This document shows positions 13,822-57,523 of a stretch of DNA of 64,000 nucleotides, one piece after another; positions within the stretch are counted from its first letter, which is position 1; the number at the start of each line of letters is the position of its first letter. Source of the stretch: a virus; the IMG/VR virus record IMGVR_UViG_3300033998_000198, positions 1-64,000 of that record; one strand, 5' to 3'. Below the pieces are notes generated by a model. That model searched no databases. It had not been told where the DNA came from and worked only from the letters and a program-made list of their open reading frames with translations. The position numbers and the translations under genes are program-made.

Positions 13822-13857
13822 CATAAACCGCATTAATATATAAGGGGGATAAACAAA

Positions 13858-14247: not shown

Positions 14248-14262
14248 TAGGAGGAGATATAT

Positions 14263-32283: not shown

Positions 32284-33830
32284 ATTATGATATCGTATCT
32301 CAGTTAAATACAGTTGAAAATTACGGTAAAGTAATTTACCTTCTTGGTTCCGCAGAAAGCGGGCCTGTCCAAACTCCTGTAAAAGTCAGGACAACGGAAG
32401 TGTTAAAAGATGTCTTCGGCAGCCTCGGTACTATTGTTGAAGCATTCAACCAGATTACAGATGTTGCCGGCAGCAATTGTGAAATATACTGTGTAAAGGT
32501 AACAGGTACGCATGCAACATTGACGATGGATGTAAACGTAAAAGGCCAGAATGTAATCAACGACGGATTTATTATGAAATCCAAATATGCAAATGAGATA
32601 TATAATAACATCTATGTTGCACTTGATAACCAAGGTATGACATTTTATTTTCCAACAGAACTTGGTGGAGGTACAAGACGGTATACTTTCTCCGATTACG
32701 AAATACTCGGCTTGCTAATCAGAGCGATCAATGAAGATACAAAGAAAGGTCTTAACCATGTATGGGTACATGCAACAATAGGACACGGCACACCGCTTGA
32801 TGGATTGCTATTCTCAGTCAATCCATCAATGATGAATTTCTCGGGAGGAAACAGCGGACTGTATTACAGTAAGGACCAATACTGGTTTTGTCTGTGCGAT
32901 ACATATGATTTGCTTGAAAGTGAATATATTGATATAATATTACCATTGGATGCTTTTATGGACGATGTCCATCCGAGATTTTATTACGGTGACCAATTTG
33001 AGTCATCGGTTACATATTCAAGCGACAGAGACTACCTGGATCTTGAGGATTCAGATGGTAGACCGATAACGTTCCATCGGCCGCTTATAGACTTCTGTAA
33101 GAAGCAGATGCGGTTCGGTCTGATTACTCACGGTATCATGGGGTTTAATAAAATTCCAGATATTGAAGAATTGAATAATCAGGCGTATAATTATATTGAT
33201 GTAATAAAAGGAAGTCCGCTCGGAGACCGGATCGGATTCTTGAAAGCACCGGAAACCGACGACGGGTTCTTTATTTCGGTAGTAGCTGGAGAATTGGAAT
33301 ACAGTGATGGTACAATTGCAAACGGCTACACTGGTTATGCTGGCCTTATGGCAAGCACAACAATAGCATCAAGTTTGACAAATAAACCATTGGGAGATAA
33401 GGTCAAGCTGGCAACAACATTCACCAGCGAACAATTAGAGGCTATGGCCAATTTGGGGGTTGTGTCGTTTAGAGACAGTATTTTGAAGGGGTTAGTCGTA
33501 TCGAATGCGGTTACACCTGTAGCTGACATTTCTAATGAACTGCATTACTCATGCAATGTGAGAATGATTCAGTTAACACTATCCTTCATAAAATTACAAC
33601 TCGACAAATTCCTTGGCGAAGATATAAACAAACTCATTGACGACAATGCCATAGACACTACTATCAAAGGTGTGCTTGAGTATTTGAAAGAACAGGATGT
33701 TCTAAAGGATTACACTTACACACAGAATATCGATAGGATAAACGGAGTTCTTCAAATAACTCTCGACCTGAAGACCCTTTACATGGTTGAATCCTGCTCG
33801 GTATCTGCCGAAGCTACATTCAAAGTGTGA
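32280..33830 (+). CDS. Tail sheath-like protein (first of two)
   Basis: 516 aa. The N-terminus has the sheath pattern VIYLLGSAESGPVQTPVKV...VFGSLGTIVEAFNQ, where contractile sheath proteins read G-x-A-x-x-GP...P-x-x-V...FG. The C-terminal half contains GYAGLMASTTIASSLTNKPLGDKV and LEAMANLGVVSFRDSILKG, typical of the region before the sheath C-terminal arm, and a closing strand pair (YTQNIDRINGVLQITLDLKTL). It lies upstream of a second, larger sheath gene. It may be a distal or proximal sheath ring, a sheath initiator, or a divergent paralogue kept for a second structure. Confidence 0.62.
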   Translation: MNYDIVSQLNTVENYGKVIYLLGSAESGPVQTPVKVRTTEVLKDVFGSLGTIVEAFNQITDVAGSNCEIYCVKVTGTHATLTMDVNVKGQNVINDGFIMKSKYANEIYNNIYVALDNQGMTFYFPTELGGGTRRYTFSDYEILGLLIRAINEDTKKGLNHVWVHATIGHGTPLDGLLFSVNPSMMNFSGGNSGLYYSKDQYWFCLCDTYDLLESEYIDIILPLDAFMDDVHPRFYYGDQFESSVTYSSDRDYLDLEDSDGRPITFHRPLIDFCKKQMRFGLITHGIMGFNKIPDIEELNNQAYNYIDVIKGSPLGDRIGFLKAPETDDGFFISVVAGELEYSDGTIANGYTGYAGLMASTTIASSLTNKPLGDKVKLATTFTSEQLEAMANLGVVSFRDSILKGLVVSNAVTPVADISNELHYSCNVRMIQLTLSFIKLQLDKFLGEDINKLIDDNAIDTTIKGVLEYLKEQDVLKDYTYTQNIDRINGVLQITLDLKTLYMVESCSVSAEATFKV

Positions 33831-34651: not shown

Positions 34652-36961
34652 ATGATCGCATTTCGCAACTTATACCCAAATCTTCCAGGTCATCTGGTAG
34701 AGTTCAAGGATGGCGGATTGGCTCTCAGAGTTGAAGCAGATCCACCAAAAACCGACAGTATGCTCATTCTCGGAACCGCAATTGACGGTCCTGTTATGGA
34801 GCCTGTAGCTGTAGATGCAACTACTGCTGAATTGCTGTTCGGTAAGGCAGTAAAGGGTAACGGCGTACCCAATGGATCAACACTGATTCCCGCATTTGAA
34901 GAAGCATGGAACGCTGGATGCCGTGATATTCGTCTTATGAGGATATCTGGTGATTACGCCGTAGCGGAAATCAAAGCTGAAGATTTAACATCAACAACCC
35001 AGAAGCTCAAGACAGAACAGTTAGGAGTTGCCCCAGGTAATGATGAAACAGTTATTACACTGGCAAACAAGCATATCGTTCCTAACTCTGCAAAAGTATA
35101 CGTAAAAGGCACTCAGCTTCTGACAGGCTTTACTGTTGATGAAGCAGCAGGTAAGGTAACCATTGCTGCTGGTGTTGACGATGCTGGGGCGTCAGTATCT
35201 GTAAGTTACAAATACTTCGCTATTGAAGATGTCGCTAACGAAGCGGCTACTGTAGAAGGAGGCAAAGTAACACTTACATATGATATTGACTCTATAGTGT
35301 CCATTAAAGTCAATGGAGATCCTGCAACACCCGTTTATACTGTGTCCGGAAAAGACATTACTTTTGAGTCCGGCGTTGCTGAAGGTGACAACGTAGCTGT
35401 TACATACAAAGGTATCACTACTAACGAAATCACCGCTCAGGAGAACGGAACCGGTACTGATCCTTTCCTTACTGCAACATCTTTGATGGTAGTGCCAATC
35501 GGACAGAGCCCTGTTCCCGGAACAATGCATCTGTATGCTAACGGAACTGAAATCCTCACTTCCGGAGCTTTCACAGTTGACGGTACTGCAAAGACCATCA
35601 GTATAAAGAAGGAAATGGTTTCTAAGGGAGCTCTCCTTGAAATCAGCTACATGTATAACGAAACTGCAACTCAGACTCCTAAGATTGAAATAACATCCAT
35701 ATATGGCGGCGAAGTTTACAATCAGGCAAAAGTTGAAGTTGTAGATGTCAAGGACTCCAGCGGTAATGTAATGGGTAAGAAAGTTATTCTTACCAAACCC
35801 GAATCCAAGAAAGCACAGGTCGCAGAAGAACCTTTGAGCTACAGCTCACTGGATTATCCGAACTTCATGCTCTTGGTACAGGCAATCAACAACGACCCGA
35901 TGAATAATGTGTTCAAGGCTTCAACTAAGTTCAACAACGTTGAAACCTCCAAGTTGTTAACCAAAACCCCAACTTTCTTTCTCGGTGGAGCAGATGGAAT
36001 CAACCTCACAAAAGAGGAATTGTTCGAAGCTCTGTCTGGTAAGAGAAATGAAGCCGGCCTGTTGACTAAACAGGGAGCGTATCAGTTGCTCGAAGATTAT
36101 CAGGTTGACTGGGTCGTTCCTGTTGGTGTTTATGCTGACGACGAACTTCCTGGTAAATTCCAGAACTTTGCATATGAGCTGGCTATGTTCTGTGCGGTTC
36201 TCTCCTACAGGAACAAGATGACCTTCGGTGCAATCAATATGAAGCCTGTAGAAGACACCGGTCTGTCTTCAATTCAGGAACACGCTAAGAAACTTGCTGC
36301 ATTCGAGAACCTCTACTACATGAGAGATTCATACGGCAATATAATCAAAGACAGCAACGGAAACTTTATCGATCTCGGAGGATTCATTAACGTTGTTGCC
36401 GGACCTGAAATAGCTGTTAGAGGCACAAGCCTTGGAACATATAACGCAGATCCTGCGGTTTCATATGTTGCATTCAGTACGACACTGAATCCTCAGTCCG
36501 CAGCAGGCAATAAGACAATACCTAATGGTAGGGGGCTTCGTTACAGATTCTCCAATGCACAGCTCGACAGTATCGTCGCAAGACGTTTAACCGTACTGAA
36601 ACTCAAACAGGACGGCAGCGTTTCTGTAGTAGATGATGCAACCTGTGCAGCTCCTGGTTCTGACTACGCAAGAAGAACCACTGGTAAGGTTGTAAGAGAA
36701 GTCGTCGATCAGATCAGAGAAGTCTGTGATCCTTTCATCGGCGAACCTAACACAATCGAACAGAGAAACGCAATGTCTGCCACCATCAGTAAGAGACTTG
36801 GACAGTTGAAAGATGCTGGAGTAATCCAGGACTATGACTTCCAGGTAGTTGCAACATTGCAGGATCAACTGCTTGGTCAGGCAAAGATCGAGTTAACCCT
36901 CGTTCCACCTCAAGAATTGAGGAAGATCACTACAGTTGTAAGCCTCAAGCCTTCTCTGTAA
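34652..36961 (+). CDS. Tail sheath protein with inserted beta domains
   Basis: 769 aa, ATG 34652 after AAGGAGGAAG. N-terminal sheath pattern: SMLILGTAIDGPVMEPVAV...LLFGKAV...LIPAFEEAWNAGCRDIRLMRISG. Residues about 125-345 are an insertion of three beta modules of the fiber type (KVYVKGTQLLTGFTVDE, VSIKVNGDPATPVYTVSG, MHLYANGTEILTSGAFTVDG). The C-terminal contractile core is clear: SYVAFSTTLNPQSAAGNK, then RGLRYRFSNAQLDSIVARRLTVLK, and the terminal arm RLGQLKDAGVIQDYDFQVVA. Sheath subunits contract to drive the tube through the envelope. The insertion would point outward and could decorate the tail. A strong hairpin follows the gene. Confidence 0.88.
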   Translation: MIAFRNLYPNLPGHLVEFKDGGLALRVEADPPKTDSMLILGTAIDGPVMEPVAVDATTAELLFGKAVKGNGVPNGSTLIPAFEEAWNAGCRDIRLMRISGDYAVAEIKAEDLTSTTQKLKTEQLGVAPGNDETVITLANKHIVPNSAKVYVKGTQLLTGFTVDEAAGKVTIAAGVDDAGASVSVSYKYFAIEDVANEAATVEGGKVTLTYDIDSIVSIKVNGDPATPVYTVSGKDITFESGVAEGDNVAVTYKGITTNEITAQENGTGTDPFLTATSLMVVPIGQSPVPGTMHLYANGTEILTSGAFTVDGTAKTISIKKEMVSKGALLEISYMYNETATQTPKIEITSIYGGEVYNQAKVEVVDVKDSSGNVMGKKVILTKPESKKAQVAEEPLSYSSLDYPNFMLLVQAINNDPMNNVFKASTKFNNVETSKLLTKTPTFFLGGADGINLTKEELFEALSGKRNEAGLLTKQGAYQLLEDYQVDWVVPVGVYADDELPGKFQNFAYELAMFCAVLSYRNKMTFGAINMKPVEDTGLSSIQEHAKKLAAFENLYYMRDSYGNIIKDSNGNFIDLGGFINVVAGPEIAVRGTSLGTYNADPAVSYVAFSTTLNPQSAAGNKTIPNGRGLRYRFSNAQLDSIVARRLTVLKLKQDGSVSVVDDATCAAPGSDYARRTTGKVVREVVDQIREVCDPFIGEPNTIEQRNAMSATISKRLGQLKDAGVIQDYDFQVVATLQDQLLGQAKIELTLVPPQELRKITTVVSLKPSL

Positions 36962-42359: not shown

Positions 42360-43066
42360 TGGAACAATTACAAGCATTCGATCTTTTGGTATTCAAGGAG
42401 CAGAATGAAGGTCACAGGGTCATGTATATCAATATTTGTAATCGTGAGTTTGTATTTAGGACTCTTGGAAAGAAGGAATACAAGAACATCCTGAATGTTG
42501 CAAATAATGAATTTGATCTCGAAGATATGATATGCCAGATTGCTTTGATATACCCTGAAGACTTTGACTTCAAGGATTGTCCTCTTGGAGGGTTGTCAAA
42601 GACAATTGCTCCTTTGATTACCGAACTTTCCGGATTTACCAATCCTGAGATCGTCCAGGAGACTTACGACCAGTATCGCCTGGAAATGAATAGTTTTGAG
42701 AATAAGGCATATGCCCTCATTAAGATGGCATTCCCCGAATTTACGTTTGAAGAAATGGAAGAATGGACATGGGATAAGGTTCTCAAGGTTGCAACAAAGG
42801 CAGAGTTTATCCTGAATGAAACTCACTTTAGAGATAACCCTATCGAGCTTGTCAAAGTAGACACTACGCCGCAGAAACAAATGGAACGCACTGAGTTTGT
42901 TCAGGAACTGCGGCAACAGGGTATTGACCCGATGAAATATTTCTGGAATGAAATTAATGTCAAGCCTCAATATGTAGACTTTCCGTTAATCGGTGGTGTG
43001 CATTGGCAGAACGAGGGGATATTGAATGAGATCAGACGACAGATGGAGAGAGCATCTAAGAGGTAA
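42359..43066 (+). CDS. Tail assembly chaperone 2
   Basis: 235 aa, starting on the A of the previous stop. Residues about 20-95 parallel the upstream protein (REFVFRTLGKKEYKNILNVA, LEDMICQIALIYP, ITELSGFT). The C-terminal 140 residues are helical (FEEMEEWTWDKVLKVATKAEF, then WQNEGILNEIRRQMERASK). The longer second member of a chaperone pair normally carries the tail-binding part. The two genes are separate frames; no slippery heptamer was found in the 25-base window where a -1 shift could fuse them. Its 3' end overlaps the giant gene by 41 bases. Confidence 0.66.
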   Translation: MEQLQAFDLLVFKEQNEGHRVMYINICNREFVFRTLGKKEYKNILNVANNEFDLEDMICQIALIYPEDFDFKDCPLGGLSKTIAPLITELSGFTNPEIVQETYDQYRLEMNSFENKAYALIKMAFPEFTFEEMEEWTWDKVLKVATKAEFILNETHFRDNPIELVKVDTTPQKQMERTEFVQELRQQGIDPMKYFWNEINVKPQYVDFPLIGGVHWQNEGILNEIRRQMERASKR

Positions 43067-46000
43067 ATATCCAGAGTATCTGGGCAGACAGAGAAAATGG
43101 GCCGAAGATTATGACAGAGACGATACCGTAAAAGACGACAGCATCTTATCAAAACTGCTTATCGCTGCGGCGATAGGTGCTGCCGGATATGGTTTATATA
43201 AAAGCGGTGCATTAAGAAAGGCCATCAGTAAAGGCATTGATGAATTAGGGGAGTATAAAGGCGTTATCCCTGAAGCATTCAATGCCTTAAAAGCATGGAC
43301 TAAAACTGATGTGGATGTTCCAATCGGAAGCATATTCCGTCAGAATTTTTCCTCCTTAAAGTCTGTATCTAACTTTGTAAAGAACAAGGACATTATAAAT
43401 GACACCCTTGCCGATTTACGTGGTCTTCGTGAAATGGTTCAAAAGAGGATCGCACAGGTTAAAGATGAAGCCGACAGGATTACCAAAATGGCTGTCAAGG
43501 AAACAGACTTATTGTTTGAGATAGGTAATCTCAATGAAATGATGGATTCTGTCAAAGCAGACGATATACTGAAACGCCACCAAATGGAAATCGGAAACAA
43601 GGCACTTCAGACACTGATAGAAAAGAGAAGCGAAGGAGCTATGTCAAAGGCTGCCCAAGCAAAGCTCAAACAAAATGGATACAGGCTTCTTACTATAGGT
43701 GATGTTCTCAAGGTAGACACACAGACAAATAAACCGTTGCTTATTAACAGCACAAGCAGGTTCGAAGTAGAAGAACAGACATTAAAAGAACTGACAGATT
43801 TCTTCTCTACCTTTGAGGTAATAGACAAAAAGACCGGGAAGAAGTCTCTTGCAATCAATAACTTTGACATGATCAAAGACATCACATTCGATAGAGGACT
43901 CATGATCAATGAGTTCGGAAAGATTGCAGACATAAGGCGAGCTGACAGACACTTTGCACAGATGATGGTTTCTGCTTCGCTTGATTTTCATATACCGTTA
44001 ATAAAGATACGTCCGTTTGAAATGGTCGGACTGCATAACAAATTCATGCGTCAGGAAGTAAAATACGGTTATCTGTCTGCAAAAACATTTCAGCCAATAC
44101 TTACAGGTAAGCCCGGTCAGGAGTATCTCGGCAAGAGCATGGTGTTCATGCACGGTAATGTATTTGACATAGATAAAAACGGTAACATGAAATTAGTTGC
44201 CCAGGGAGGTAAACTGCTCCATATTCGTGACGACGCAAACGTTGGATATGGAATCAGCAAACACGCCGATATCATAAGAAAAATGGCAAACCTTCAGAAT
44301 GTACACTTCCAGACGTACACAGCCGAGGACGGACGAATCAAGGCGGCTTACTCTAAAGTGATGGAATGGTTCGGGCTTGGTTTCCAGGACAAGAAGATAT
44401 CAACGGAATTTGAACTCTTTAAGCCTTCAACATGGGATTCTCTACTTAATAAATGGCAGCCGTTCAGGCCATACAAATCCTCATTTGTAACAAGACCGCA
44501 GGATTCTTTCGGACATTCTCCGACAGGTCCTACGTATTTGTTTATGTATCAAGGCAAGACATTTAAAGACGTAATGCAAGGCAGCGTATCTATAGAGGAT
44601 TTCTTCAAGCAGTTTGTTGCAGGAAGAAAGAACTTGAAGAATGTAACTACGGCAACAATGGTTCCGTATCATCTTCTTGACCGTCTCAGCAACTCGCTGA
44701 GAGCTGTTAGTGCAGGTGGTATTAGCCTTGGCTTAAAGACAGAAGACCTTGGATCGGTCCAGGATATCTTCAAGAACTTGATGCTAAAGCGTATACTTCC
44801 GGTTTATCTTGGCATACAGGCTTGGATATACATAAATAACAAAGAAGAAGGCAAACAGCCTGAAGACAAGATTGCAAATACTGTTGTAAACCTCGACCTT
44901 GCATGGCATGGAGTAAAAGACAGGCTCGGCCTTACATCTTGGGCAAAACGTGTATCTCAGCTTATGCCAGGAGGAGAGCAGATAAGTGACATTCCCGGTC
45001 TTGGAGTTCTCGATATGACTTCAACCAGGGAGGAAAAAGAACAATGGTACAAGACTGGTATGGAGCCAATTCGTAAAGGGCGTTACTGGAGTCTTGGCAA
45101 TACTCCATTTACTGGAGGCAAGATAGAATATTATGCACCAAATTGGTACAGAAGGGTAATCAGCGATTACAAGTGGACAGATTCACAGTGGGGAAGTCGG
45201 GATGAATACTTTGCAAATGCTCCATTTCCGACTCCAAAATATCCTTTCGCTCCAATACGGCACTTTATTACTGACCCGTATCATTGGGAGAAAAAGCATT
45301 ATCATGACAGACCATATATGCTGTCGTCTCCGGCATTCAGTAATGTACCAATAGTAGGTCCTGTACTCAGTGCAACTCTTGGCCGGCTGTTAAAACCACA
45401 GATTCGCATGCATCCTGAAGCATGGGCACCAAAACTTGAAGGGTATTCGGTCGTGGATCAAGGAACAGGAGATAACACCGGTACTGTTCTTCCTGACCAA
45501 TTGGTTGCAACAAATAGGTTTCCTGGAACTGAAATCACAGTTGTCCCTGAAGCAGAAATGGGACAGAAGCCGCTTGATTCATTGTTTCATTGGAGCAGGA
45601 AACCGAAGACCAATACAAATGATATTATATATGTTACGCCAAGCGGGCAAACAAGCATTGTCAGCATACCTAACAGCATCTCAATCAAGGATTTGAACGA
45701 CCAATTACGTAAAGAATCAATCAGGAAAGTCCGTGGTGCGTCTGAGAAACGTGATGGTGGTCTGATTAAAGATAACGCTGTTGCAAAACAACTCATCAGC
45801 AATATCGAGAATACGTTAAATGACCAATACGATGTATTCTCTGAAATTGGAGGTATATATGGATTCGGTATCAATGCTCTTATAGGTAATGGTTCTGATG
45901 TTGGTGGTGTGGAAATCGAAACACCCGCCTATGCGACATCCTTAAATAAAGCATTCTGGGATCAGGATCTCGGTGGACTTGGTGGAGAATTCTCTGAAAT

Positions 46001-48617
46001 CTATCGTAGGTTTATACCAAAGAGAAGGCGTGAGATTGAATATTACAATCCAATCAGAAACACCATGCCTACATGGATGCCGGGAACAGATTATTTTACA
46101 GACTTCCAGCATGGTGATCCTTACGCCAAGATTAAACGTGGAGAAGCAAGACTTCCTGGAGAAGGGTATGAGAAGCTATATGGAATCAGAGACCCTATGG
46201 AGCTCGGAATAGGTTCGTCGTTTATAGGTAAATCAGTTGATGATATCGTTAAACATTTCTTACACCAGGACGAAATCATAGACGAAGACCAGCTTGATAT
46301 TGTGCAATCTGGTACAGATTTTCATGAGAAAGTTCAGTCGGCATGGAAAAAGAAAGGCTTGCTTCTTGATGCAGAAGTTGAAGTTAATGACAGGAAACAC
46401 AATGTCATTGGATTCTATGATGCACGTATTCTTGATGAATCTTCACCAACAGGCGACGCTATTGCTGAAATAAAGACAATCAACGATAATGGGTTTAAGG
46501 AACTTGACAAAAAAGGGCCAATGGATTACCACCAGAAACAGCTTAACTTCTATCTGTGGGCAACACATAGGCCAAAAGGTTATATTTATTACATCAACAG
46601 GGATCATCCGGAACAGGAAGCAAAAATATTCCCTATGGCATATGACCAGAAGATGATGGAAGAAACATTCAAGAATCTTGAGCAAGCCAGGAAGATCATC
46701 AAAGACAAAATAGCCTTAAATGAGATCCAAAGAGGAGACTTGTACGATTACTTTGACAGGTTCCGCATACTTGCAGATGTAGCACCATACTCAAAAGAGT
46801 TCAAAGAATACAGGGCTTTGATAAGCAAGATGCAGCTAACCAAGGAACAAGAGGCTGAAGCAAAGGAAATACGTAAGCGTGTAATTGAACAAAACAAACC
46901 GCTTAGGATATATCCTTATAAATTCCAGACTTCAAACATAAAAGTACAGACTGTAACTGTAAAACGCAAGATAGACAACGAGAAGTTCCTTACATATGAG
47001 TTCCCTGACAACCCAATAGAGCTTGCCGGCGTTAATCTTCCTAACAGCAAAACTTCCAAAGAAGGGAGGGCAGCAACTCAGTTTATTGACCGGTTTATCC
47101 ATGAAGGAGCCAGGATACAGGTCGGAGTTGATGCAGACCCGTTGAACCTTATACAGGATAACACTTATAAGACGATCAAAGCTGTCGTATACTCAGGCAA
47201 GACAAACATCAACCGCACGGCAATACAGCAGGGAGTAGGAAAGGAAAATGAAGATGACTTCTCGCCTGCCGGTGTTCATGCTCGTTTTACCGAAGGTGAA
47301 ATCAGATTCGGCAAAGTATGGGAGAAATTCGCTCACTTGAATACTATGTTCCATATAAAGTTCTTGCAGGTAAGGTCTGCACTTGAGAGTTATGAACGCA
47401 GGGATTTATACGGCAAAGACTTTCAAAGATGGGAGCATCCTATCCGGGACTTCCTCCGCCCAGCAATCGACCAGAATATAAACAACAAGTATGGAATACT
47501 GGTTGGCGGTTTGGTCGGCTCATTGTTTGGCCGTACACTTTATGGTAAAATTATAGGAGCAACAGTTGGTGTTGCAGTAATTGGTTCAGGTAAGGCATAC
47601 AAGAAAGCATATGAATTAATTTCAGGTGAGAAATGGATACCTGAACGCAGGGAAAAAGAACGTGATTTAAACGAATACATTGACATCCTGAAATTTATCA
47701 AATACAAGCGATTGTATGTTGAGTATGCACAGAAATCAAAACTCAAGGAGAACTTTGATGTTCAGAAGTTCCTTGACGCTCAGAAAGCTCGTGGTGAAAA
47801 AAATAAAGCAAGAATCAAGGATCTTGAAGAAGCAAAGAGGTTAATAAAAATCAAGGGCGACAGTGCAATACGGTCGATGTATAAACAGTATAGACCAAAA
47901 TACGGCACCCCAGGAATGAACGTGGACGAGATGATATCTGCAATCAACAAAGAAATGACAGAACTCATGAATGAACGAAAGGCCGTTAAAGTTCCAAAGA
48001 TTGCACAAAAGGCCATTGCATACTACAACTTATCAGAGAAGACCATGTACGGATACGATGTCGGAGAGCCTATCCAAAACATCCTGGCCGCAATGCCAAA
48101 GAAGGATAGACAGTATCTCAGTTACTTTATGAAAGCTCCGGAAGAAGAACGCATGAAGATTCTTGAGGTGGCTCCACGGTATGTCCGCAGGGTTCTCGAA
48201 CAAACATGGGGGCTGCCTGTTGAGGGCAAACCAGATCTTATTCAGTATTTCAAGCACCATCAACTTCCAGGACCTGACTGGGAAGGATGGGATGAAAACA
48301 TAAACCTGGATCTGGTTAAAGTTAAAATGGTTCGTAATGAAGCCCTTGATATTTCAGATTTTAATATCTGGGAAGACGACGTGCAGCAGGCAAAAGCAAT
48401 GGGACCTATTCCGCTGCCTAAACTATATATAAGTGACTATGCAGAGAAGGTAAAGGCAAAACTCGAAGATCTACTGCACGGAATAGGACTAAACGACGTA
48501 TCTGTAAGCTATTCTCTATCATCAAAGGATATTGATGTAGATATAGACCTGCAAAGAGACAAAAAGAAAGAGATAGAGAGGTACATTAACGAAAAAGGTG
48601 CATCTCTATTCCAATAG
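43026..48617 (+). CDS. Giant tape-measure-position protein with PD-(D/E)XK nuclease
   Basis: 1863 aa, ATG 43026 after GAGGGGAT, inside the end of chaperone 2. A hydrophobic segment (about 40-58, SKLLIAAAIGAAGYGLY) and a glycine-rich pair of segments (about 1490-1530) are typical of tape measures that cross the host membrane; helices surround them. Residues about 1070-1225 are a RecB/Cas4-type PD-(D/E)XK nuclease: GTDFH (H1100), GFYDARI (D1132), AEIKT (E1148, K1150) and the following YHQKQLNFYLWA helix. Residues about 1325-1410 resemble a staphylococcal-nuclease fold (IELAGVNLPNS, EGRAATQFIDRFIHEGARIQVG, then INRTAIQQGVG) but lack the usual catalytic residues. DNA cleavage after ejection is inferred. 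Confidence 0.78.
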   Translation: MRSDDRWREHLRGKYPEYLGRQRKWAEDYDRDDTVKDDSILSKLLIAAAIGAAGYGLYKSGALRKAISKGIDELGEYKGVIPEAFNALKAWTKTDVDVPIGSIFRQNFSSLKSVSNFVKNKDIINDTLADLRGLREMVQKRIAQVKDEADRITKMAVKETDLLFEIGNLNEMMDSVKADDILKRHQMEIGNKALQTLIEKRSEGAMSKAAQAKLKQNGYRLLTIGDVLKVDTQTNKPLLINSTSRFEVEEQTLKELTDFFSTFEVIDKKTGKKSLAINNFDMIKDITFDRGLMINEFGKIADIRRADRHFAQMMVSASLDFHIPLIKIRPFEMVGLHNKFMRQEVKYGYLSAKTFQPILTGKPGQEYLGKSMVFMHGNVFDIDKNGNMKLVAQGGKLLHIRDDANVGYGISKHADIIRKMANLQNVHFQTYTAEDGRIKAAYSKVMEWFGLGFQDKKISTEFELFKPSTWDSLLNKWQPFRPYKSSFVTRPQDSFGHSPTGPTYLFMYQGKTFKDVMQGSVSIEDFFKQFVAGRKNLKNVTTATMVPYHLLDRLSNSLRAVSAGGISLGLKTEDLGSVQDIFKNLMLKRILPVYLGIQAWIYINNKEEGKQPEDKIANTVVNLDLAWHGVKDRLGLTSWAKRVSQLMPGGEQISDIPGLGVLDMTSTREEKEQWYKTGMEPIRKGRYWSLGNTPFTGGKIEYYAPNWYRRVISDYKWTDSQWGSRDEYFANAPFPTPKYPFAPIRHFITDPYHWEKKHYHDRPYMLSSPAFSNVPIVGPVLSATLGRLLKPQIRMHPEAWAPKLEGYSVVDQGTGDNTGTVLPDQLVATNRFPGTEITVVPEAEMGQKPLDSLFHWSRKPKTNTNDIIYVTPSGQTSIVSIPNSISIKDLNDQLRKESIRKVRGASEKRDGGLIKDNAVAKQLISNIENTLNDQYDVFSEIGGIYGFGINALIGNGSDVGGVEIETPAYATSLNKAFWDQDLGGLGGEFSEIYRRFIPKRRREIEYYNPIRNTMPTWMPGTDYFTDFQHGDPYAKIKRGEARLPGEGYEKLYGIRDPMELGIGSSFIGKSVDDIVKHFLHQDEIIDEDQLDIVQSGTDFHEKVQSAWKKKGLLLDAEVEVNDRKHNVIGFYDARILDESSPTGDAIAEIKTINDNGFKELDKKGPMDYHQKQLNFYLWATHRPKGYIYYINRDHPEQEAKIFPMAYDQKMMEETFKNLEQARKIIKDKIALNEIQRGDLYDYFDRFRILADVAPYSKEFKEYRALISKMQLTKEQEAEAKEIRKRVIEQNKPLRIYPYKFQTSNIKVQTVTVKRKIDNEKFLTYEFPDNPIELAGVNLPNSKTSKEGRAATQFIDRFIHEGARIQVGVDADPLNLIQDNTYKTIKAVVYSGKTNINRTAIQQGVGKENEDDFSPAGVHARFTEGEIRFGKVWEKFAHLNTMFHIKFLQVRSALESYERRDLYGKDFQRWEHPIRDFLRPAIDQNINNKYGILVGGLVGSLFGRTLYGKIIGATVGVAVIGSGKAYKKAYELISGEKWIPERREKERDLNEYIDILKFIKYKRLYVEYAQKSKLKENFDVQKFLDAQKARGEKNKARIKDLEEAKRLIKIKGDSAIRSMYKQYRPKYGTPGMNVDEMISAINKEMTELMNERKAVKVPKIAQKAIAYYNLSEKTMYGYDVGEPIQNILAAMPKKDRQYLSYFMKAPEEERMKILEVAPRYVRRVLEQTWGLPVEGKPDLIQYFKHHQLPGPDWEGWDENINLDLVKVKMVRNEALDISDFNIWEDDVQQAKAMGPIPLPKLYISDYAEKVKAKLEDLLHGIGLNDVSVSYSLSSKDIDVDIDLQRDKKKEIERYINEKGASLFQ

Positions 48618-48628: not shown

Positions 48629-51600
48629 ATGGCAATTAGACCGGTAATGAGTGCTAATATGAACAGTAACCTGAAGATGAACAGGTATAGTGATTTCTTC
48701 AATGGCATGGATGAAGAAAAGATTGACGCATATAAAAACGTCCGTGGAATGATAGATGAGTTAAAAGGTACTGAAGCCGACGTATCATTAAAGGACTTTT
48801 ATTTCAAGTCATTCAATGCAGGAGTAATGGATTATAACATTCCTGCACTTGAGCAAGGCATGAATATGTTTAATGATATGCTGGACGCCGGTGCCGGTTC
48901 TGTGTACGCAATGGACCTTGAAACTCTCGGCAACCCTTTTGGTGATGCATCAGAAAAGGGTTTGTTTGCCATTACAGAAATGACTCTTACCAAGAAAGAT
49001 CTCGCAACAGGTACTGTCCTTGACGTACAAAACGTCCTGTTCGGCCTTACTGAAGAACAAAGGCTTGCTTACGAAAATCTGATTGCCAGAGCTGAACTCG
49101 GATACAACTCATTGACCAGTTCAGAAAAGGCAACTATAGAACGTCTTGCAAGGTATGGAGCAAAGGATACTAAGATTATTAACAGAGGAGGCAAAGCAAT
49201 ACTTGCCAACCTCGGTATAGCTAATCCTATGGATCTTACCGCAGCAAAGAAGGGTTTAAATAGACTTGTAGATATAGGTCCCGGGCAGGCATGGGGTAGC
49301 CAGTTTGCCCGTGACCAGCTAATCATTGCATCAAATCACTTAAATCAGATAAAAGGCCCAAACAATATTTTGTTCACACACAACGGCAGCAAGTTTGATA
49401 TGCCTGCTTTTAACGAAGCATTACGTATGCATGGTATTAGCAATACAATTAACGACATAAACCATGTTGACTTTCAAGCTGCCATTCATACAGCATATGG
49501 TGGAGATACACTGAATCTTCACTTAACAGCCCGTGAAACAAACGGTGTAAAAGGTAAGATTAAAGGGGCTCTTGAAACTCTTGATAAACTTGCAGAATCT
49601 TTTGGTATAAGGACTCACGCCCATGTTGCCTCAAACGACAACAGGACGTTGATTAACCTTTTAACTGCTCCGTACAGGAAAACTGAGCATGGTACAATCA
49701 ATCTTGGCCAGGACTTAAAGTCCAGACTGAATGCATATTCAGTTCTGTCAAAACACCAGGACATTGATCCAAGCACTGTTGCTGACAAGGTTATATTCGT
49801 AAAGAATGCCGTATATACAAATGGTCTTGACTACATAAAAACAAGTGAAGGAATCAAACCTTACGGAGACTGGCCATTACAAAGGAATAATTTCTATAGG
49901 ATTGAAAATGTCGGGAAAGTAAATATCAAAGACACCGCTTCTTTGCGGAAGATAGGCATAAATGTGCCTGCCGGAAGCACTGGAAGTGATCTTTATTATA
50001 TGACACTACGCAATGTGGCTACCGGTAAAGAAGAAGAAACAATAAATATAGTACGTAGTTCAAGAGAAGAACTTCAGGCATTGTTCCAGAAAAATCTTGA
50101 GGTGTTCCGGTACACTAAAGACCTTAAAGATATAAGTTCAGACCTTGACGCAAAGATGGCATTGCAAAACCAGATTGTAAGCCAGGCAATGATTGATGAA
50201 ACGACAAGGCTTGCCACAAGGGACAATGCAAGACGTAAGTTTGAAGGTATGTTCCAGACTTCAGGTAAAGGGTTTAATTATGCCAAAGGAATGTACCAAA
50301 CCTATAATAATTTATACCAGAACGGCATTACAACAGCGGAAGAAGCGGCACTCTATATCCAAAACAATCCTACAAGTGAATTGTTAAGAGGTCTTCAGTA
50401 TAAAGGAGATATTATACCCGAACGTCGTAGTGATTTCCTTGAGATGTTCAACCTCATCAGAGATACTTCAGACACGATGACTACTGTAATCAACAGAATT
50501 GAATCCAACATCCCAGTCAAAGGAGAAGCTGGAACCGTCAAAAGGACTGTTGCTCTCGGACGTGCGTATGAGAATCTTCAGAATGCAATTATGCAAGCCT
50601 CCGGTGTTGCTGAGAACATAGCAAAGAACAGGAAGCTGATAACCCCATATCCAATGGATATTGACGTTATTAATATAGGTGTTGATGACATTCATAGAAT
50701 CACTGTAAGGGCTCGTTCTGTTGAAGAAGCAAGGATTAACATATTAAATGGAATAGACAAACTGGTAGGTACAGAGAAGAACAAGAGGGCAAGAGAAAAC
50801 AAACGAATGTTCTATCTAAGACGGCTTGCAGAGAATGTCTATGGAAAAGATTCAGAGAAGCTGGAACGTATGTTTGGTCAGCTTGACAGTGCATACTATA
50901 CTGCCGGAGAAATTGCAGGCGACCTTAACAAACAGTTCCTTGACGGAACATTAAATATCGGCCGTGACGAGATATACGCTACAGATCTTGATAGTTATGT
51001 CATCAATTCATCTACATTTGACCAGTTCATGGTTGATAATAACATTAACGTTCTTGGCTTGACCGACGCTGCAAGTGCCCATATCGGGTCTTTAACCGAG
51101 GCTTCTCTTGGCGATACAGTTGTCATGGAAAAAGGCGTGTTTACCATTAAGGATGAAAACCTTAGAAAACTCTTGATGGAGGATTATCACTATAGTGCAG
51201 ATAACGTGCACGACCTTATGAGAGGATTATATGGTAAAAGTCCGGATGGTACTGAATACGGCCTTGTCAATAAACATGGTTTGGTTGCCGAATTGTTTGT
51301 TGACGAAGAAGGGTATCTTTCTATAGCATTGACAGACAAGAAACATGCAACAGAATTATACGAATCTCTGGCAAAGAACGAGGTTCCAAAGAACGCGGCC
51401 ATATCAAGGCTTCCGCAGGTAAGCTATTATGGCGATGACACTGACCTGTTAAAGAAGGTGTCATTTGGAAGCGTTGAGAAACAGGTAACTACTGAACTTA
51501 ATACATATTATTCTCCTGGTTCGAGCGAAAGCTATTATAATAACATCAGGATAGCTGCAAGGGACACAACCAGCGAATCGCTAAACTCCCTTGTTAAACT

Positions 51601-54600
51601 CCACAGGGTTCTTCCTGACCTGATAGAAGCAGGAGAGTACGACAGAGCTTCAAGGCAGCTTACAAATACAATGGCTGCTCCTATATTTGGAGGTTCTGGT
51701 TTCTCAGGAAATACAACAGTAGCAATTGACGATATTCTTGCTGAAAAAGCTCTGCGTCCGAACGTATCCGATATTATCACGGCATCGACCGTAGATATGA
51801 CCGGACTTGTAAACTTCATCCCTGAGCTCTATAAAAGAGACGAAGAAATAAGAAATGACCTTAACCGCATACTTGTAAACAACAAAGCGATCGACGACAG
51901 ATTTATTGATAACTGGATAAGGGATATCCAGGCAGGAAACCTCAAACAATTCAGTGACATGGACATCGAGTTACGTGAATGGTACACGATGAATATGTTT
52001 GAAGGTCATAAGATACTGCATAAAATCCGCGACCTTAAAGCTGAAGGAGGACGTTTATTCCAGAAGGAAGTCTCATTACTTGACAGCTTGATTGCAAATG
52101 GAGCTTCGTTCTTTAACAAGGCTGAAAAAGTATCTGAGGGTATTGCTGTATTGGAAAATCCATTTGAGTATGTAACATATGGATTCATGAATGAGCTTTC
52201 CCGTCCTGTCGCAAGGCAATCACTTGCATTTCACGCCCTTGACCCAAGAGAACTTACAGGTGCTTCAGTTAAGCTCGAAGCGGCCGGTATGAAACTTGGA
52301 CAGACTGTAGTTACAGACAAAATGTATAACAAGTATCTGAAAAAGTATAGGTTTGAAACAGGAATTACCGGTGACATAAAGAATTTGAATGACACCGAGA
52401 TACTTGATGCAATAGAATCTCTTGACAAAGAAGAATTATACAAGAAGTATGGTAGGTCAAGAGTTGATAAGGTTATAAATGAATATAAGACAATCGGTAG
52501 TACATTCCAGCAGCACTCATTGATTAATCCGATGCTGACTGCTGACATATACAACAAACCTGAGCTTATAAAATTTGATGTGACAGGCAATAGTTTTGAG
52601 TTTGCCGAAGGGCTTGGTGTTGGTAAAAAAATCAAATCCGGTTCTTTACTCGGATACGAAATAGACGGAGAAACAAGAAGGGCTGTTGTATACAATGGTC
52701 AGGATGGAATAATCTCTGGATTTATCAACAGAAAGAACGCACAAAAAGTTGTCATAAAACCATTTAATGCACAGATAGATGAAATAAAGCTCATCATGGG
52801 AGGTGTTGAAAAATCTGTTGCATCTGTTGTAAACCGAGATGCCGAAATGCTTCCTATAGCTCAGGAAATCTGGGATAAACTATTTGGTAAGAGTACAGCG
52901 GTCGTAGGGCGATTTGAAATAGGAAAGCACGAAGCTGCAAGCATCGCATACGGTAGCACTATTACCAGAATGGCTGAAAGAGCTCTTGAGCATGGAGAAG
53001 CTGTACAGAATGAATTCGCCAATCTTTTAAACCAGAACCTTCCCGAATGGAATGGCCGATGGGAAGGAAACAAGTTTGTCATTTCAGGGAATCCGAATGC
53101 TGCCGGAGGACATTTCAGCGGCATACGAAACCTTGTTGATGCAATGAGAGATAAGGGTATTTATGATGATATCATAGCCGACTTTGACAATCCGAACACA
53201 AATACGCTGCGTACTTTGATATCTAAAGGTCAGATGTCCGAAATGTTTTCTGTCATGGAAGACGAAGCGGATATTTACGGAAAAGGTCTCAAAATTACAG
53301 ACCGTGAGTTACAGATTGCAGGTATTAGATCTGGAGAACAACCGACGGATTTCTTTTTCCAGGATGCCAACGGTAAATGGCAAAAGAAATTACAACCTGT
53401 TATTGACGCATGGCGTGAGGAAATCACACGAGAAAATATCGAGCTTGAGAACGGTAAATTACTTGAAACCAATTACAGCAAAGCAAAGAAAGACCTTAGA
53501 AATATAACCAACACATACAGTGCATTGCGTGGCGAAACACCGACAGCAGCTATTAAAGAACTTCATTTTGATGATGTAAAACCGATATTAAAAGGTGTTG
53601 ATGCTGCAACACTCGAAGATGCTTTAAAAGGGACTGTGTTTGAAGATGTTGCCGATGTGTTTAAGATTACCCTTCCAAATAATATGAAGGTCTTAAACAT
53701 GGTTACAGGCGAAATGGATGACCATATTTATATACCGTATCTGCACTCATACGATATTGACGGCAAGGTTATTACACATAACGCCCACAGAAAATCAGCA
53801 GACCTTCTAAGGATGCTTGACAGTATTGCCGAAGGCAAACTTCCTAACGGCGTAAGAAGCATGAGTCAATTACAGAGTGCATTAAATGACGCTTATGCTG
53901 AAGCTATGGCCGCATACGGGCGTGAACTGTCTGATGACAAGAACAGTATATTAAAGAGACATCTGGTGTCCGGAAGATTATCACATTCGGGACAGGGACT
54001 TGCTGGTGCTGTTGTTTCACCTGAATTATTCAAAAACGGCGAAGTAGATTCACGGCTTGCCGGAATTGTGCATAGCGATGTTGTAGAGAAGGTCGGAGAT
54101 AAAATACTCTATAAGGATGTTGCTTATACATCTGCTGAGATGCTCGAAGACATGGGTGTTAACTTTGCAGAGATAGGGCGGCAGGTTCTTGAAGACAAGA
54201 AAATACGTTCTCAGATTGGTGACGTGGACGCATTTATTGCAAGATCCGGATTTAACCGCTATGATCTTACAAAGGCACCTATAGACATTGACATGCTCCA
54301 TGAGATCATCAAGCAGAAGATACTGAAAGACAACAATCCTTATACAATAGATGATGCAAGGGAAGCCCTTGAGAACCTCACTCAGCTTGGTAAATATTAT
54401 GCAAGAGAAAAGGGTATCATGAGTATAATGCTTCGTTATCCGTCATTCTTGCAAACATCTCTTGGAGTAACAAATATCAGATTGTCTCCTTACATGCATG
54501 GTCGTAAATTCAACATCATGAGTTGGACGGCAGCAGGATTAAACGCCGACATTGACGCTGATAGACTTTCTGTATGGCTCAATCTTACAAAAACCGGAGG

Positions 54601-57523
54601 ACTTCAAGCTGATACTGAAGTTAAACAGAAAGCACTGATAGATGTATTTAACGCTCAAGCAAGAAACAATGCCAAGCTATTTAAGAAGGCTCTTGAAGAT
54701 TATGCCGACGTAGAGCCTGACGGACTCAAGGCTTATAGTGCAAAAGGCTTCGATGAATTTCTTGTCAAGAAGATTTCAAAGAAGTTAGGGTACACCGGAA
54801 CAGATCAGGAAATCTTCGACCAGTTTGATGCAAGATCCAACAAACTGATGGACCCTGAAAGAAGAATGACAGCCGTAAAGGCCAACTTTGACAAGGCCGG
54901 TATCGGTTATATATCAAACACTAATGTGATTGTAAGGGATATAGCTTTTGAACAATTCAGAGATTCTGGTGATATATATACACTTTCAAACATCCTTGAG
55001 TTTACAGACAAGACAGAGCAGAAACTGATTGACGTTAAGCATATGAAAACAATGGGCGAGGGAAGCGGTAATATTGATGATATCATTATCAAAGCCGGAC
55101 GATACAGAACTGCAATAAACACCCTCGCAACAGGTGATGCAAGGCAAAAAGATGAAGCAATCAACAAACTTCGTGAAATTTTGTTCAATAGTGATGTTTA
55201 CAAGAGAGAGCAGTCCGTAAGGGTTGATGAAGTTCTCAGTTCGCTCCGTCAATTGTTTGACAGCAAGTATGCAAAACAATGGACAAACCCAATCAGAAGC
55301 AAGATGTCAGGAAAAAATTATGCCGAACAGATTAAGGACGTCAATAACTTCCTGAAGAATCCCACAGCATACGGCGGGACTGAGTTAACAAATCTTTCTG
55401 TCAATGAAGTGATTCATGCAAATGATATAGACACTATAAGCATTGACGATACAGCTCTTGTTCCTCCATCAAAAGGAACAGAATATCCCGTCTTGCTAAA
55501 GGACAGTGCTGGCAAAACATCTCCACCAATAGGTGCATATGTATATAGTGGTTCAGGTGTTGGTGCCAATACCAATATGAAGTATGTTGAGCTTGAAGAA
55601 TTCATCACAGATCCTTCTGTAAACAAAGCAAGAAGCAAACGTTACAGGATATACGGCAATACAATGGCTGATATCCAGCGTCAGATGAGAGATGAGTTCA
55701 GAGTAGCAACTGACATCAATGATGTCCAGAATTTGATTGATGTTGAGAAGGGTAGAATCCTTGACTCGGCGATGTCAAGCGGTTTTGAGTTCGAGAAAGA
55801 GCGTATTACGGCTGAATTCTTAAACGGTGGAAGTATTGATGATATTTTGGCCAAATCAACCATAGGGGTAGAGAACCGTCAGGATATCATCGATCATCTT
55901 ACCAATCTTAACCCTACTCAATATCAAAGCGAAGCATACAGGCAATTGGCTTCAGAGTTCTTTGACAACGAAATGACTGGCCGGCCAATGCGTAGATTCT
56001 CTGCCGCAGTATCAGAACTGGCTGAAAGAAATTACATTGGAAACCAGGCAAGTCTTATACAGGCATTTAATAACTATATACGGCAACGTGGTGCTGAAGG
56101 CCCTTCAGACAAATGGAATCCTGCAATGATTTCAGATGTCCATGATGAATTAATCCGAAAGGCATTGTATCAGGTTCCAGGTCTTCCATCAGCACAGATA
56201 GAAGGAATCCTAAACCAGGTTAACACCGTAGCGGACGATATGATAGCCCGTAAAGGAGAAATACGGTTAAGACCTGCTAAAGTACAGAATGTTGCCGAGA
56301 CTATTGCAAGAATACAGGATACTCCATTGTATGACATGAAAAGTGCCTTCTCTCAACTTGAGAACATGGCAAACGATATGTTAGGCAATATAACAAAAAC
56401 TCAACTGGAAAGTTTTGCTGAAGCAACACGGCTTAGTCCCGAAGATGCTATCGCAAAACTTAGGCATACTGTAAAGAACGAGAATATCCAACTTCCATTC
56501 AAGGCAATCACTCAGGCTGAAAGCGTTAAGATAGCTTCGCTTAACCAAATGTATTCAGAGCTTCTTGCGTCAAAGAACCAAGAAGCAATGGATTTCCTTG
56601 GCTGGAAACCTATAAATGAAGTTGTCAACGCATACAACCCAAGTGCGGCAGCAAGAGCTGTAGGTGAAACTTACGACCCAATTGCGGCCATACGTGAAAT
56701 TGGCCAATCCAAAGTTACTTATGGAAGATATGCCGGCATGGAGTTCTCGTCATTATCAATCGGGGAGCTCAAGGAAATTATGAATCTCCGTCCTGAAACT
56801 GCAAAGACCAGAATTGAAGCGGACAATATTGTAGCTCTCAAACAAAGAGTAAATCAATATTTCTCATTGCTTGACCAGAATACATCAGCAGTAAGAGCTG
56901 AAGGAATTAGTATAAATATTCCTGAAGCTGTACGCAAATCGAGGTATGTTGATGTAGATATAAACGAACTTTTAAAGTCCAATGGTATAAAGTTAAAGAA
57001 CTTGGACGATTTATTGGATACAACCAAAAGGGACTTAAAATTTGATATGGCTCGTGGTACAATAAAAGAAGGGGTAGAAAATGCTGTCAAGCGTTCCGAA
57101 GATTTGTTTGGAAGCAGTAAGTTCGGAAAGATAGCTCTTGCCGGTTTGGCTCTTGGTCTTGCAGGATATATTGTTGGACAGATGAGTGCAAAACCAGGAC
57201 CGCTACAACCGGAGCATAGACCTTCAGGCGAAGGAGCTCCCGCACCAGATGGAACTTACGAACCGAAAGTCAACTATAAAACACCACAACCGCAGATGCC
57301 AAAGAAAGCAGTAATGCAGGAAAACAATTCTGGAATGCGGATAAAGATAAGTGCAAAGAATGGAACCAGCATGTCAAACAGTGATGTTGCTGGAGCAGTA
57401 AACAAAGCCATCGCTGATTCCTTGCCAAATAGAATGAATGTCAACGTGGTTTCAAGAGACGACACCAGTGCAGTCAATGACAGTTGGTTGGAAGAACAGT
57501 TTAAGAGGCTTATAGGAGGGTGA
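48629..57523 (+). CDS. Giant virion protein: DEDDh exonuclease plus RNA-polymerase-like core
   Basis: 2964 aa, ATG 48629 after AGGGGG. Residues about 88-350 form a complete DEDDh 3'-5' exonuclease: YAMDLETL (D96, E98), THNGSKFD (D257), HVASND (H332, D337). Residues about 1180-2200 resemble multisubunit-type RNA polymerase. RHLVSGRLSHSGQGLAGAVV (about 1777-1796) then SPEL matches the beta-prime GKRVDYSGRSV region. LRYPSFLQTSLGV then, 24 residues on, LNADIDADRLSVWLNLT (D1974, D1976, D1978) matches RAPTLHRLGIQ...NADFDGDQMAVHVPLT. A conserved-looking LIDVKH follows (K2137, H2138). GETRRAVVYNGQDGIISGF (about 1347-1365) may be the beta barrel. One membrane-like segment (about 2830-2853) precedes the C-terminal tail. 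Probably ejected with the DNA to transcribe early genes. Confidence 0.8.
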   Translation: MAIRPVMSANMNSNLKMNRYSDFFNGMDEEKIDAYKNVRGMIDELKGTEADVSLKDFYFKSFNAGVMDYNIPALEQGMNMFNDMLDAGAGSVYAMDLETLGNPFGDASEKGLFAITEMTLTKKDLATGTVLDVQNVLFGLTEEQRLAYENLIARAELGYNSLTSSEKATIERLARYGAKDTKIINRGGKAILANLGIANPMDLTAAKKGLNRLVDIGPGQAWGSQFARDQLIIASNHLNQIKGPNNILFTHNGSKFDMPAFNEALRMHGISNTINDINHVDFQAAIHTAYGGDTLNLHLTARETNGVKGKIKGALETLDKLAESFGIRTHAHVASNDNRTLINLLTAPYRKTEHGTINLGQDLKSRLNAYSVLSKHQDIDPSTVADKVIFVKNAVYTNGLDYIKTSEGIKPYGDWPLQRNNFYRIENVGKVNIKDTASLRKIGINVPAGSTGSDLYYMTLRNVATGKEEETINIVRSSREELQALFQKNLEVFRYTKDLKDISSDLDAKMALQNQIVSQAMIDETTRLATRDNARRKFEGMFQTSGKGFNYAKGMYQTYNNLYQNGITTAEEAALYIQNNPTSELLRGLQYKGDIIPERRSDFLEMFNLIRDTSDTMTTVINRIESNIPVKGEAGTVKRTVALGRAYENLQNAIMQASGVAENIAKNRKLITPYPMDIDVINIGVDDIHRITVRARSVEEARINILNGIDKLVGTEKNKRARENKRMFYLRRLAENVYGKDSEKLERMFGQLDSAYYTAGEIAGDLNKQFLDGTLNIGRDEIYATDLDSYVINSSTFDQFMVDNNINVLGLTDAASAHIGSLTEASLGDTVVMEKGVFTIKDENLRKLLMEDYHYSADNVHDLMRGLYGKSPDGTEYGLVNKHGLVAELFVDEEGYLSIALTDKKHATELYESLAKNEVPKNAAISRLPQVSYYGDDTDLLKKVSFGSVEKQVTTELNTYYSPGSSESYYNNIRIAARDTTSESLNSLVKLHRVLPDLIEAGEYDRASRQLTNTMAAPIFGGSGFSGNTTVAIDDILAEKALRPNVSDIITASTVDMTGLVNFIPELYKRDEEIRNDLNRILVNNKAIDDRFIDNWIRDIQAGNLKQFSDMDIELREWYTMNMFEGHKILHKIRDLKAEGGRLFQKEVSLLDSLIANGASFFNKAEKVSEGIAVLENPFEYVTYGFMNELSRPVARQSLAFHALDPRELTGASVKLEAAGMKLGQTVVTDKMYNKYLKKYRFETGITGDIKNLNDTEILDAIESLDKEELYKKYGRSRVDKVINEYKTIGSTFQQHSLINPMLTADIYNKPELIKFDVTGNSFEFAEGLGVGKKIKSGSLLGYEIDGETRRAVVYNGQDGIISGFINRKNAQKVVIKPFNAQIDEIKLIMGGVEKSVASVVNRDAEMLPIAQEIWDKLFGKSTAVVGRFEIGKHEAASIAYGSTITRMAERALEHGEAVQNEFANLLNQNLPEWNGRWEGNKFVISGNPNAAGGHFSGIRNLVDAMRDKGIYDDIIADFDNPNTNTLRTLISKGQMSEMFSVMEDEADIYGKGLKITDRELQIAGIRSGEQPTDFFFQDANGKWQKKLQPVIDAWREEITRENIELENGKLLETNYSKAKKDLRNITNTYSALRGETPTAAIKELHFDDVKPILKGVDAATLEDALKGTVFEDVADVFKITLPNNMKVLNMVTGEMDDHIYIPYLHSYDIDGKVITHNAHRKSADLLRMLDSIAEGKLPNGVRSMSQLQSALNDAYAEAMAAYGRELSDDKNSILKRHLVSGRLSHSGQGLAGAVVSPELFKNGEVDSRLAGIVHSDVVEKVGDKILYKDVAYTSAEMLEDMGVNFAEIGRQVLEDKKIRSQIGDVDAFIARSGFNRYDLTKAPIDIDMLHEIIKQKILKDNNPYTIDDAREALENLTQLGKYYAREKGIMSIMLRYPSFLQTSLGVTNIRLSPYMHGRKFNIMSWTAAGLNADIDADRLSVWLNLTKTGGLQADTEVKQKALIDVFNAQARNNAKLFKKALEDYADVEPDGLKAYSAKGFDEFLVKKISKKLGYTGTDQEIFDQFDARSNKLMDPERRMTAVKANFDKAGIGYISNTNVIVRDIAFEQFRDSGDIYTLSNILEFTDKTEQKLIDVKHMKTMGEGSGNIDDIIIKAGRYRTAINTLATGDARQKDEAINKLREILFNSDVYKREQSVRVDEVLSSLRQLFDSKYAKQWTNPIRSKMSGKNYAEQIKDVNNFLKNPTAYGGTELTNLSVNEVIHANDIDTISIDDTALVPPSKGTEYPVLLKDSAGKTSPPIGAYVYSGSGVGANTNMKYVELEEFITDPSVNKARSKRYRIYGNTMADIQRQMRDEFRVATDINDVQNLIDVEKGRILDSAMSSGFEFEKERITAEFLNGGSIDDILAKSTIGVENRQDIIDHLTNLNPTQYQSEAYRQLASEFFDNEMTGRPMRRFSAAVSELAERNYIGNQASLIQAFNNYIRQRGAEGPSDKWNPAMISDVHDELIRKALYQVPGLPSAQIEGILNQVNTVADDMIARKGEIRLRPAKVQNVAETIARIQDTPLYDMKSAFSQLENMANDMLGNITKTQLESFAEATRLSPEDAIAKLRHTVKNENIQLPFKAITQAESVKIASLNQMYSELLASKNQEAMDFLGWKPINEVVNAYNPSAAARAVGETYDPIAAIREIGQSKVTYGRYAGMEFSSLSIGELKEIMNLRPETAKTRIEADNIVALKQRVNQYFSLLDQNTSAVRAEGISINIPEAVRKSRYVDVDINELLKSNGIKLKNLDDLLDTTKRDLKFDMARGTIKEGVENAVKRSEDLFGSSKFGKIALAGLALGLAGYIVGQMSAKPGPLQPEHRPSGEGAPAPDGTYEPKVNYKTPQPQMPKKAVMQENNSGMRIKISAKNGTSMSNSDVAGAVNKAIADSLPNRMNVNVVSRDDTSAVNDSWLEEQFKRLIGG

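Follow-up and report, generated by a model that had tools for sequence, protein, structure and literature searches.

What does the giant reading frame in the tail module of this virus encode, and could it be an RNA polymerase (RNAP) that the virus carries in its tail? The window, the whole 64,000-nucleotide stretch of DNA analysed here, belongs to a 131,934-bp virus record (G000) that is probably incomplete, because its relatives measure 190–264 kb. G000 encodes a portal, a major capsid protein, two tail sheaths, lytic tail proteins and a hub, and therefore represents a contractile-tailed phage; its right half holds replication and nucleotide genes. A preliminary description had proposed that a 2964-aa protein in the window contains a single-chain relative of multisubunit RNAPs. 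The frame and residue numbers that it gave were exact (Table 1), with SGRLSHSG starting at residue 1781 (53969) and K2137/H2138 at 55037–55042. Elsewhere in G000, a frame that stays open for 3994 aa or more starts at 68019 (+), downstream of the baseplate genes, and three IS200/IS605 TnpB (Cas12f-like) genes lie at 93258–94454 (+), 109889–111061 (-) and 125322–126443 (-). Phage-specific promoter repeats were sought, and IS200/IS605-associated repeats alone turned up: TTAAGCCTTTGGA repeats near the TnpB genes and TTATAACTTTTTATAAG-type repeats near two of them.

Table 1. Features of the giant protein, its genomic surroundings and the separate polymerase genes of relatives (window coordinates unless another record is named).
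Feature	Position	Strand	Basis or remark
Tail sheath (contractile tail)	32280..33830	+	
Second tail sheath protein	34652..36961	+	
Upstream neighbour, 1863 aa, Cas4-type nuclease domain	43026..48617	+	homolog of ME3 gp035, MTATph1 CDS0026, KLEB27-3 gp031+gp033
Giant protein, 2964 aa: exonuclease, RNAP core, C-terminal hydrophobic segment, tail domain	48629..57523	+	
N-terminal DEDDh-type 3'-5' exonuclease domain, residues 85-345	48881..49663	+	alignment A6, profile, Pfam
RNAP core, ~residues 1100-2240	51926..55348	+	homologous end to end to family core
K1387-x7-K1395, candidate DPBB-B (beta-type) basic pair	52787..52813	+	spacing as E. coli beta K1065/K1073
Beta-prime-like block, residues 1769-1800	53933..54028	+	hhalign of family profile A7 to E. 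coli beta-prime segment
R1936-Y1937-P1938, counterpart of beta-prime RAP(T)	54434..54442	+	invariant in family
NADIDAD, predicted metal-binding loop (D1974/D1976/D1978), residues 1972-1978	54542..54562	+	conservation, PF00623, predicted model
K2089..I-G2093, candidate bridge-helix start	54893..54907	+	K, G invariant; in 30-residue predicted helix of relative
EQKLIDVKH (Q2131, I2134, K2137), candidate trigger-region helix	55016..55042	+	Q, I, K invariant
Gly-rich hydrophobic segment, probable transmembrane, C-terminal	57113..57184	+	sequence reading; similar in relatives
Conserved tail domain (MNV...DDT...W), C-terminal	57323..57520	+	region with the greatest similarity to KLEB27-3
Downstream neighbour, baseplate hub / peptidoglycan-hydrolase protein, 1876 aa	57531..63161	+	
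YonO/QDE-1-family RNAP gene	G001:C1:64350-66182	-	1190-aa open frame
YonO/QDE-1-family RNAP gene	pBL141-2 54563-55417	-	1282-aa open frame

As a lone query, the 2964-aa protein had no Pfam match above cut-off, no annotated PHROG and no PDB match, and single-sequence searches of Pfam, PHROGs, PDB and phages yielded nothing useful. Its C-terminal segment gave the first link to Bacillus phage vB_BauM_KLEB27-3, the sole named phage in which a homolog could be detected. That homolog, gp034, has 2434 aa, an N-terminal exonuclease and a canonical RYP...ADYDGD, and was labelled 'structural protein' by its depositors. A 40% identical homolog is encoded by a 199.8-kb metagenomic phage (G001). Far relatives were reached with the DNA pattern RYP-x33/35-[KN]AD.D[GA]D, other searches giving near ones only. 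This pattern added two groups, one KLEB27-3-like (L029, L034) and one comprising elements of ~200 kb from Bacillus (plasmid records, pBL141-2 among them) and from Paenibacillus, Oceanobacillus and Alicyclobacillus; its matches in L023, L032, L033 and L035 were due to chance. The family thus assembled consists of unannotated proteins of 2.2–3 thousand residues from KLEB27-3, phage-like elements of Bacilli and metagenomic phages. All have an N-terminal DEDDh exonuclease and the RNAP core, and the C-terminal hydrophobic segment and tail domain were found where examined.

Across this family, the cores are homologous throughout their length. Profile comparison of the window protein and its G001 homolog with seven relatives gave E=2.8e-20 over 748 columns, and a 989-position family profile covers the whole length of the cores of the window protein, G001, KLEB27-3 and pBL141-2; KLEB27-3, which was no part of the profile, was matched end to end at 6e-149. 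Alignments were built from core slices, as full-length MAFFT misaligned the KLEB27-3 core. Two further IMG/VR records hold other giant frames. L026 (IMGVR_UViG_2860317346, reverse complement 5913–14801) has a frame of at least 2963 aa with RYP...NADFDGD near the N-terminal end and GGNKGMGV far later, possibly beta-prime ahead of beta in one chain. L027 (IMGVR_UViG_3300030107_006356, reverse complement 242–13246) has a 4335-aa frame with RYP...LEADGDGD near the C-terminal end, which may be a further giant protein with an RNAP.

Is the core related to RNAP? The Pfam family PF00623 (Rpb1/beta-prime; Rpb1 domain 2) has one match in all of G000, at 54407–54595 (E=6.1e-4, below the curated cut-off), one in KLEB27-3, in gp034 (E=7e-5), and one in pBL141-2 (E=0.019). 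An Alicyclobacillus element is the one record in which the match (3.1e-6) reaches the curated cut-off, once neighbours in the frame are counted. All four matches lie inside the giant protein; several other family members have none. When a profile of 11 cores (A4) was searched against 177,635 PDB sequences, all 17 matches with E<=10 were RNAPs (beta-prime, Rpb1, Rpo1N or PhiKZ055), the best being PhiKZ055 (E=0.018) and Rpb1 (E=0.025); the weight of this sequence search lies in its specificity, not in its E-values. Family profile A7 matched the single E. coli beta-prime sequence in hhalign with E=4.8e-4 across the active-site barrel, including NADFDGD, against 0.03–0.65 for the controls beta, YonO, gp66, gp96 and an unrelated tail protein (the hub). 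The two-sequence profile of the window protein and G001 matched beta-prime weakly (E=0.087). Scores of the family HMM against gp66, gp96 and YonO were no better than shuffles, and PF05183 (RdRP/YonO) had no match in the giant tail protein of any record searched. A phiKZ-type multisubunit RNAP was also sought in these genomes: PF00623 matched at the giant protein alone, and PF00562 was absent. By sequence, then, the core is closer to beta-prime, Rpb1 and PhiKZ055 than to YonO or crAss gp66. Of the comparisons proposed in the preliminary description, the one with beta-prime was borne out; those with YonO, crAss gp66 and beta were not significant by hhalign.

The residues expected at an RNAP active site are conserved. 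R1936, Y1937, P1938, A1973, D1974, D1976 and D1978 are invariant across relatives at 15–43% identity, as are K2089, G2093, Q2131, I2134 and K2137. The pattern R-x-P-[ST], 25–40 residues and NAD.D.D arose in 1 of 20,000 shuffles of the 2964-aa protein. N-terminal to R1936-Y-P...NADIDAD lies a beta-prime-like ILKRHLVSGRLSHSG...SPEL block. Here the earlier claim of beta-prime-like spacing failed for the exact distances: RYP and NAD are 33 residues apart, compared with ~30 in E. coli beta-prime, and the GKR-type block precedes the first Asp by 193 residues in the window protein, ~116 in E. coli beta-prime and 90–138 in relatives. The metal loop reads DxDAD, not DxDGD, in the window protein and G001. 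This variant is conserved rather than a sequencing slip, since the G001 homolog has NADVDAD, and the class as a whole does not require the Gly, since crAss gp66 has DFDID.

Structure prediction agreed with the sequence comparisons. The AF2 model of the window core was poor (pLDDT 52.8, pTM 0.32), and its best Foldseek neighbours in the PDB were still beta-prime chains (8wa0_C, E=1.6e-3). The model of a relative, L050, was better (pLDDT 70.8, pTM 0.62) and matched 530 PDB chains with E<=0.001, of which the best 50 were all RNAPs (beta-prime/Rpb1). Matches to solved structures span about 250–300 residues. In both predicted models, a helix precedes the Asp loop and a strand follows it, as in DPBB-A, in agreement with the DxDxD metal loop in a beta-prime-type barrel that is expected of the two-barrel RNAP superfamily. 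Sequence profiles, Pfam, Foldseek, synteny and conservation of catalytic residues thus concur on a single-chain relative of multisubunit RNAP, as the preliminary description had proposed.

For the second, beta-type barrel, PF00562 was negative and hhalign to E. coli beta gave no significant match. The best evidence for a candidate DPBB-B is the K1387/K1395-type basic pair. It reads K-x7-[KR], with K/K in the window protein and G001 and K/R in KLEB27-3-type members; the second group of relatives has K-x6-K, seven apart (L051 and L052 by script, others by alignment). Strands are predicted in this region of the L050 model. Towards the C terminus of the core, the K..G and Q..I..K motifs sit in consecutive long predicted helices, from which we infer bridge-helix and trigger-region counterparts. 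The Lys-His pair previously suggested for the trigger region is half conserved: K2137, a candidate trigger-region residue, is invariant, and in the KLEB27-3 group Lys replaces H2138.

In the exonuclease domain, alignment A6 shows D96, E98, D257, H332 and D337 to be invariant, corresponding to the Exo I DxE, Exo II D and Exo III HxxxxD of DnaQ-like enzymes. The exonuclease profile matches family-B DNA polymerase exonuclease (E=2e-7) and TREX1, and the Pfam families found in this region of family members are RNase_H_2, RNase_T and DNA_pol_B_exo2. The invariant residues and the PDB and Pfam matches corroborate an earlier suggestion that this contractile-tailed phage has an exonuclease fused to the RNAP core within one giant protein of its tail module. 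At a guess, the exonuclease might trim nucleic-acid ends during entry or attack host nucleic acid. In Moorella phage MTATph1, CDS0027 encodes the exonuclease and a separate gene, CDS0031, the C-terminal part; genes for a transposase and an IstB-like ATPase lie between the two (L009 19539–21781), and the RNAP core was not found in MTATph1; the parts are therefore modular.

The position of the gene points to the tail. Its upstream neighbour matches gp035 of Acinetobacter phage ME3 (BLAST E=8e-12), and the slot between the ME3-gp035 homolog and the hub is syntenic in the window, KLEB27-3, pBL141-2 and ME3. ME3 fills this slot with gp036 (L054 13173–17984), an unannotated protein of 1603 aa with RxP...DHDQD, whose BFVD predicted structure (A0A172Q021) matches our model with E=6e-11. 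Microcystis phage MaMV-DC and the 'minor tail protein' of ctnpt50 also match. The ME3 record relates gp035 and gp037 to 0305phi8-36 YP_001429636 and YP_001429638 (hub); the tape measure of 0305phi8-36 is orf146 and its hub is orf147 (PMC2147016). By this synteny, and with the numbering step presumed, the RNAP lies within a protein at the tape-measure position. In the upstream neighbour, a nuclease domain of Cas4 type (PD-(D/E)XK) occupies ~residues 1119–1225. The flanks of this stretch align in the MTATph1 homolog and the stretch itself does not, so the tail module may contain a second nuclease.

Six relatives encode another polymerase. PF05183 (RdRP/QDE-1/YonO) matches, above cut-off in each case, a separate ORF of 1130–1280 aa in G001 (E=1.8e-34), pBL141-2 and G004–G007; the same search found none in G000 and G002 (both fragments), KLEB27-3, G003, G008, ME3 or MTATph1. 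Thermus phage P23-45 has both a virion and a non-virion RNAP (PMC10770324), and by analogy the tail RNAP and the YonO/QDE-1-type RNAP of the six relatives suggest such a pair.

Tail-borne single-chain RNAPs are already known. The nearest precedent, which the preliminary description did not mention, is P23-45 gp96, the tape-measure-fused virion RNAP of that phage. Like the window protein, it has a single-chain RNAP with DxDxD inside a giant protein that occupies the tape-measure position; ejection and early transcription have been proposed for it, and the phage has a second, non-virion RNAP. It differs in its long non-contractile tail, N-terminal RNAP and metallopeptidase, and no exonuclease is reported (PMC10770324). 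There was no sequence match between gp96 and the family profile by hhalign. The other known case, gp66 of crAss-like phi14:2 (annotated gp077; PDB 6VR4), is likewise a single-chain virion RNAP, with 2180 aa and DFDID, and adjoins giant structural proteins, but it belongs to a podovirus-type phage and was unmatched by hhalign. We know of no exonuclease described for it. SPbeta YonO, QDE-1 and 0305phi8-36 gp99 (PF05183) are also single-chain two-barrel RNAPs, with DxDGD, but are non-tail enzymes, and their family corresponds to the separate gene of the six relatives rather than to the tail protein. The PhiKZ and AR9 RNAPs are phage two-barrel enzymes with virion and non-virion sets, one of them packaged, and PhiKZ055 is our best PDB profile match; they differ in having several subunits unfused to a tail protein. 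ME3 gp036 shares the syntenic slot, the RNAP-like predicted fold and RxP...DHDQD, but is shorter, has no detectable sequence similarity and shows no exonuclease at its N-terminus. New with respect to P23-45 gp96 and crAss gp66 are the contractile tail, the exonuclease fusion, the beta-prime-like sequence and the family in elements of Bacilli.

We therefore favour, with good though not full confidence, the reading that the 2964-aa protein is a virion RNAP built into a tail protein that a contractile-tailed phage has at the tape-measure position. The middle third of the chain would be a single-chain, diverged relative of cellular RNAP, a beta-like part followed by a beta-prime part with the DxDxD loop. 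The protein would be assembled in the tail, its C-terminus (hydrophobic segment and tail domain) most likely docking at the hub, and sheath contraction would deliver it with the DNA. The C-terminal segment may anchor it in the membrane. The RNAP would remain at the entry pore, or close to it, and read the first phage genes as DNA enters. In relatives, these first genes would include the separate YonO/QDE-1-type RNAP, to which later transcription would be handed over. Packaging is suggested by synteny and by the depositors' label on the KLEB27-3 homolog.

Other readings account for parts of these data. The RNAP fold might have been retained as a structural tape-measure or pilot domain whose polymerase activity is lost, idle or degenerate. 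The setting in a giant tail protein, the DxDAD variant of the window lineage, the beta-barrel unmatched by profile and MTATph1, which has the flanking parts and not the core, would all suit this idea. However, R, Y, P, the three Asp, K..G, Q/I/K and the basic residues of DPBB-B are kept at 15–43% identity, and a structural relic is unlikely to retain exactly the catalytic set; we regard this explanation as unlikely. Slightly less likely still is an active RNAP that is made late, lies in the tail module by chance and serves late transcription or as a primase. It would fit with packaging being deduced from synteny, but against it stand the constancy of the slot in diverse phages, the common C-terminal tail domain and hydrophobic segment, the naming of the KLEB27-3 homolog as a structural protein and the separate YonO-type RNAP that six relatives have for later use.

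The RNAP might instead work chiefly as a motor, pulling the genome into the cell as it transcribes, and the exonuclease would process the ends of the DNA or nucleic acid of the host. N4- and T7-type phages offer a precedent for RNAP-driven genome entry. The entry-pore model proposed for P23-45 gp96 (PMC10770324) also counts in its favour, and we nonetheless hold a primarily motor role to be improbable. Chance resemblance in an alpha-helical tail protein could be argued from the shortness of the motif and from the fact that the window protein alone has no curated database match, but independent models (PDB profile, hhalign, Foldseek and PF00623) all pick RNAP at one site, and the profile and fold searches effectively rule it out.

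An RNAP core and an exonuclease domain in a protein encoded among the tail genes suggest that the virus delivers its own RNAP to the cell as infection begins. Whether tape-measure-position single-chain virion RNAPs are widespread and largely unrecognised in contractile-tailed phages and phage-like elements (of Bacilli, ME3 and perhaps MaMV-DC), with a Bacilli branch that combines the exonuclease with a separate YonO-type RNAP, we judge to be an even question. If so, the coupling of RNAP to exonuclease and its pairing with a YonO-type enzyme in Bacilli would make entry and first transcription one process, independent of host RNAP. Tail-borne RNAPs, with precedents in a Thermus siphophage and a crAss podovirus, would then occur also in contractile-tailed phages and in elements of Bacilli that were deposited as plasmids or genome contigs, in which the genes are listed as hypothetical or structural, and the exonuclease would be a new domain partner for them. 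B. licheniformis pBL141-2-type elements and KLEB27-3 would offer cultivable systems for injection-coupled transcription, and the six relatives with both enzymes a ready-made virion/non-virion pair. A diverged, beta-prime-like single-chain RNAP would also bear on the evolution of RNAPs.
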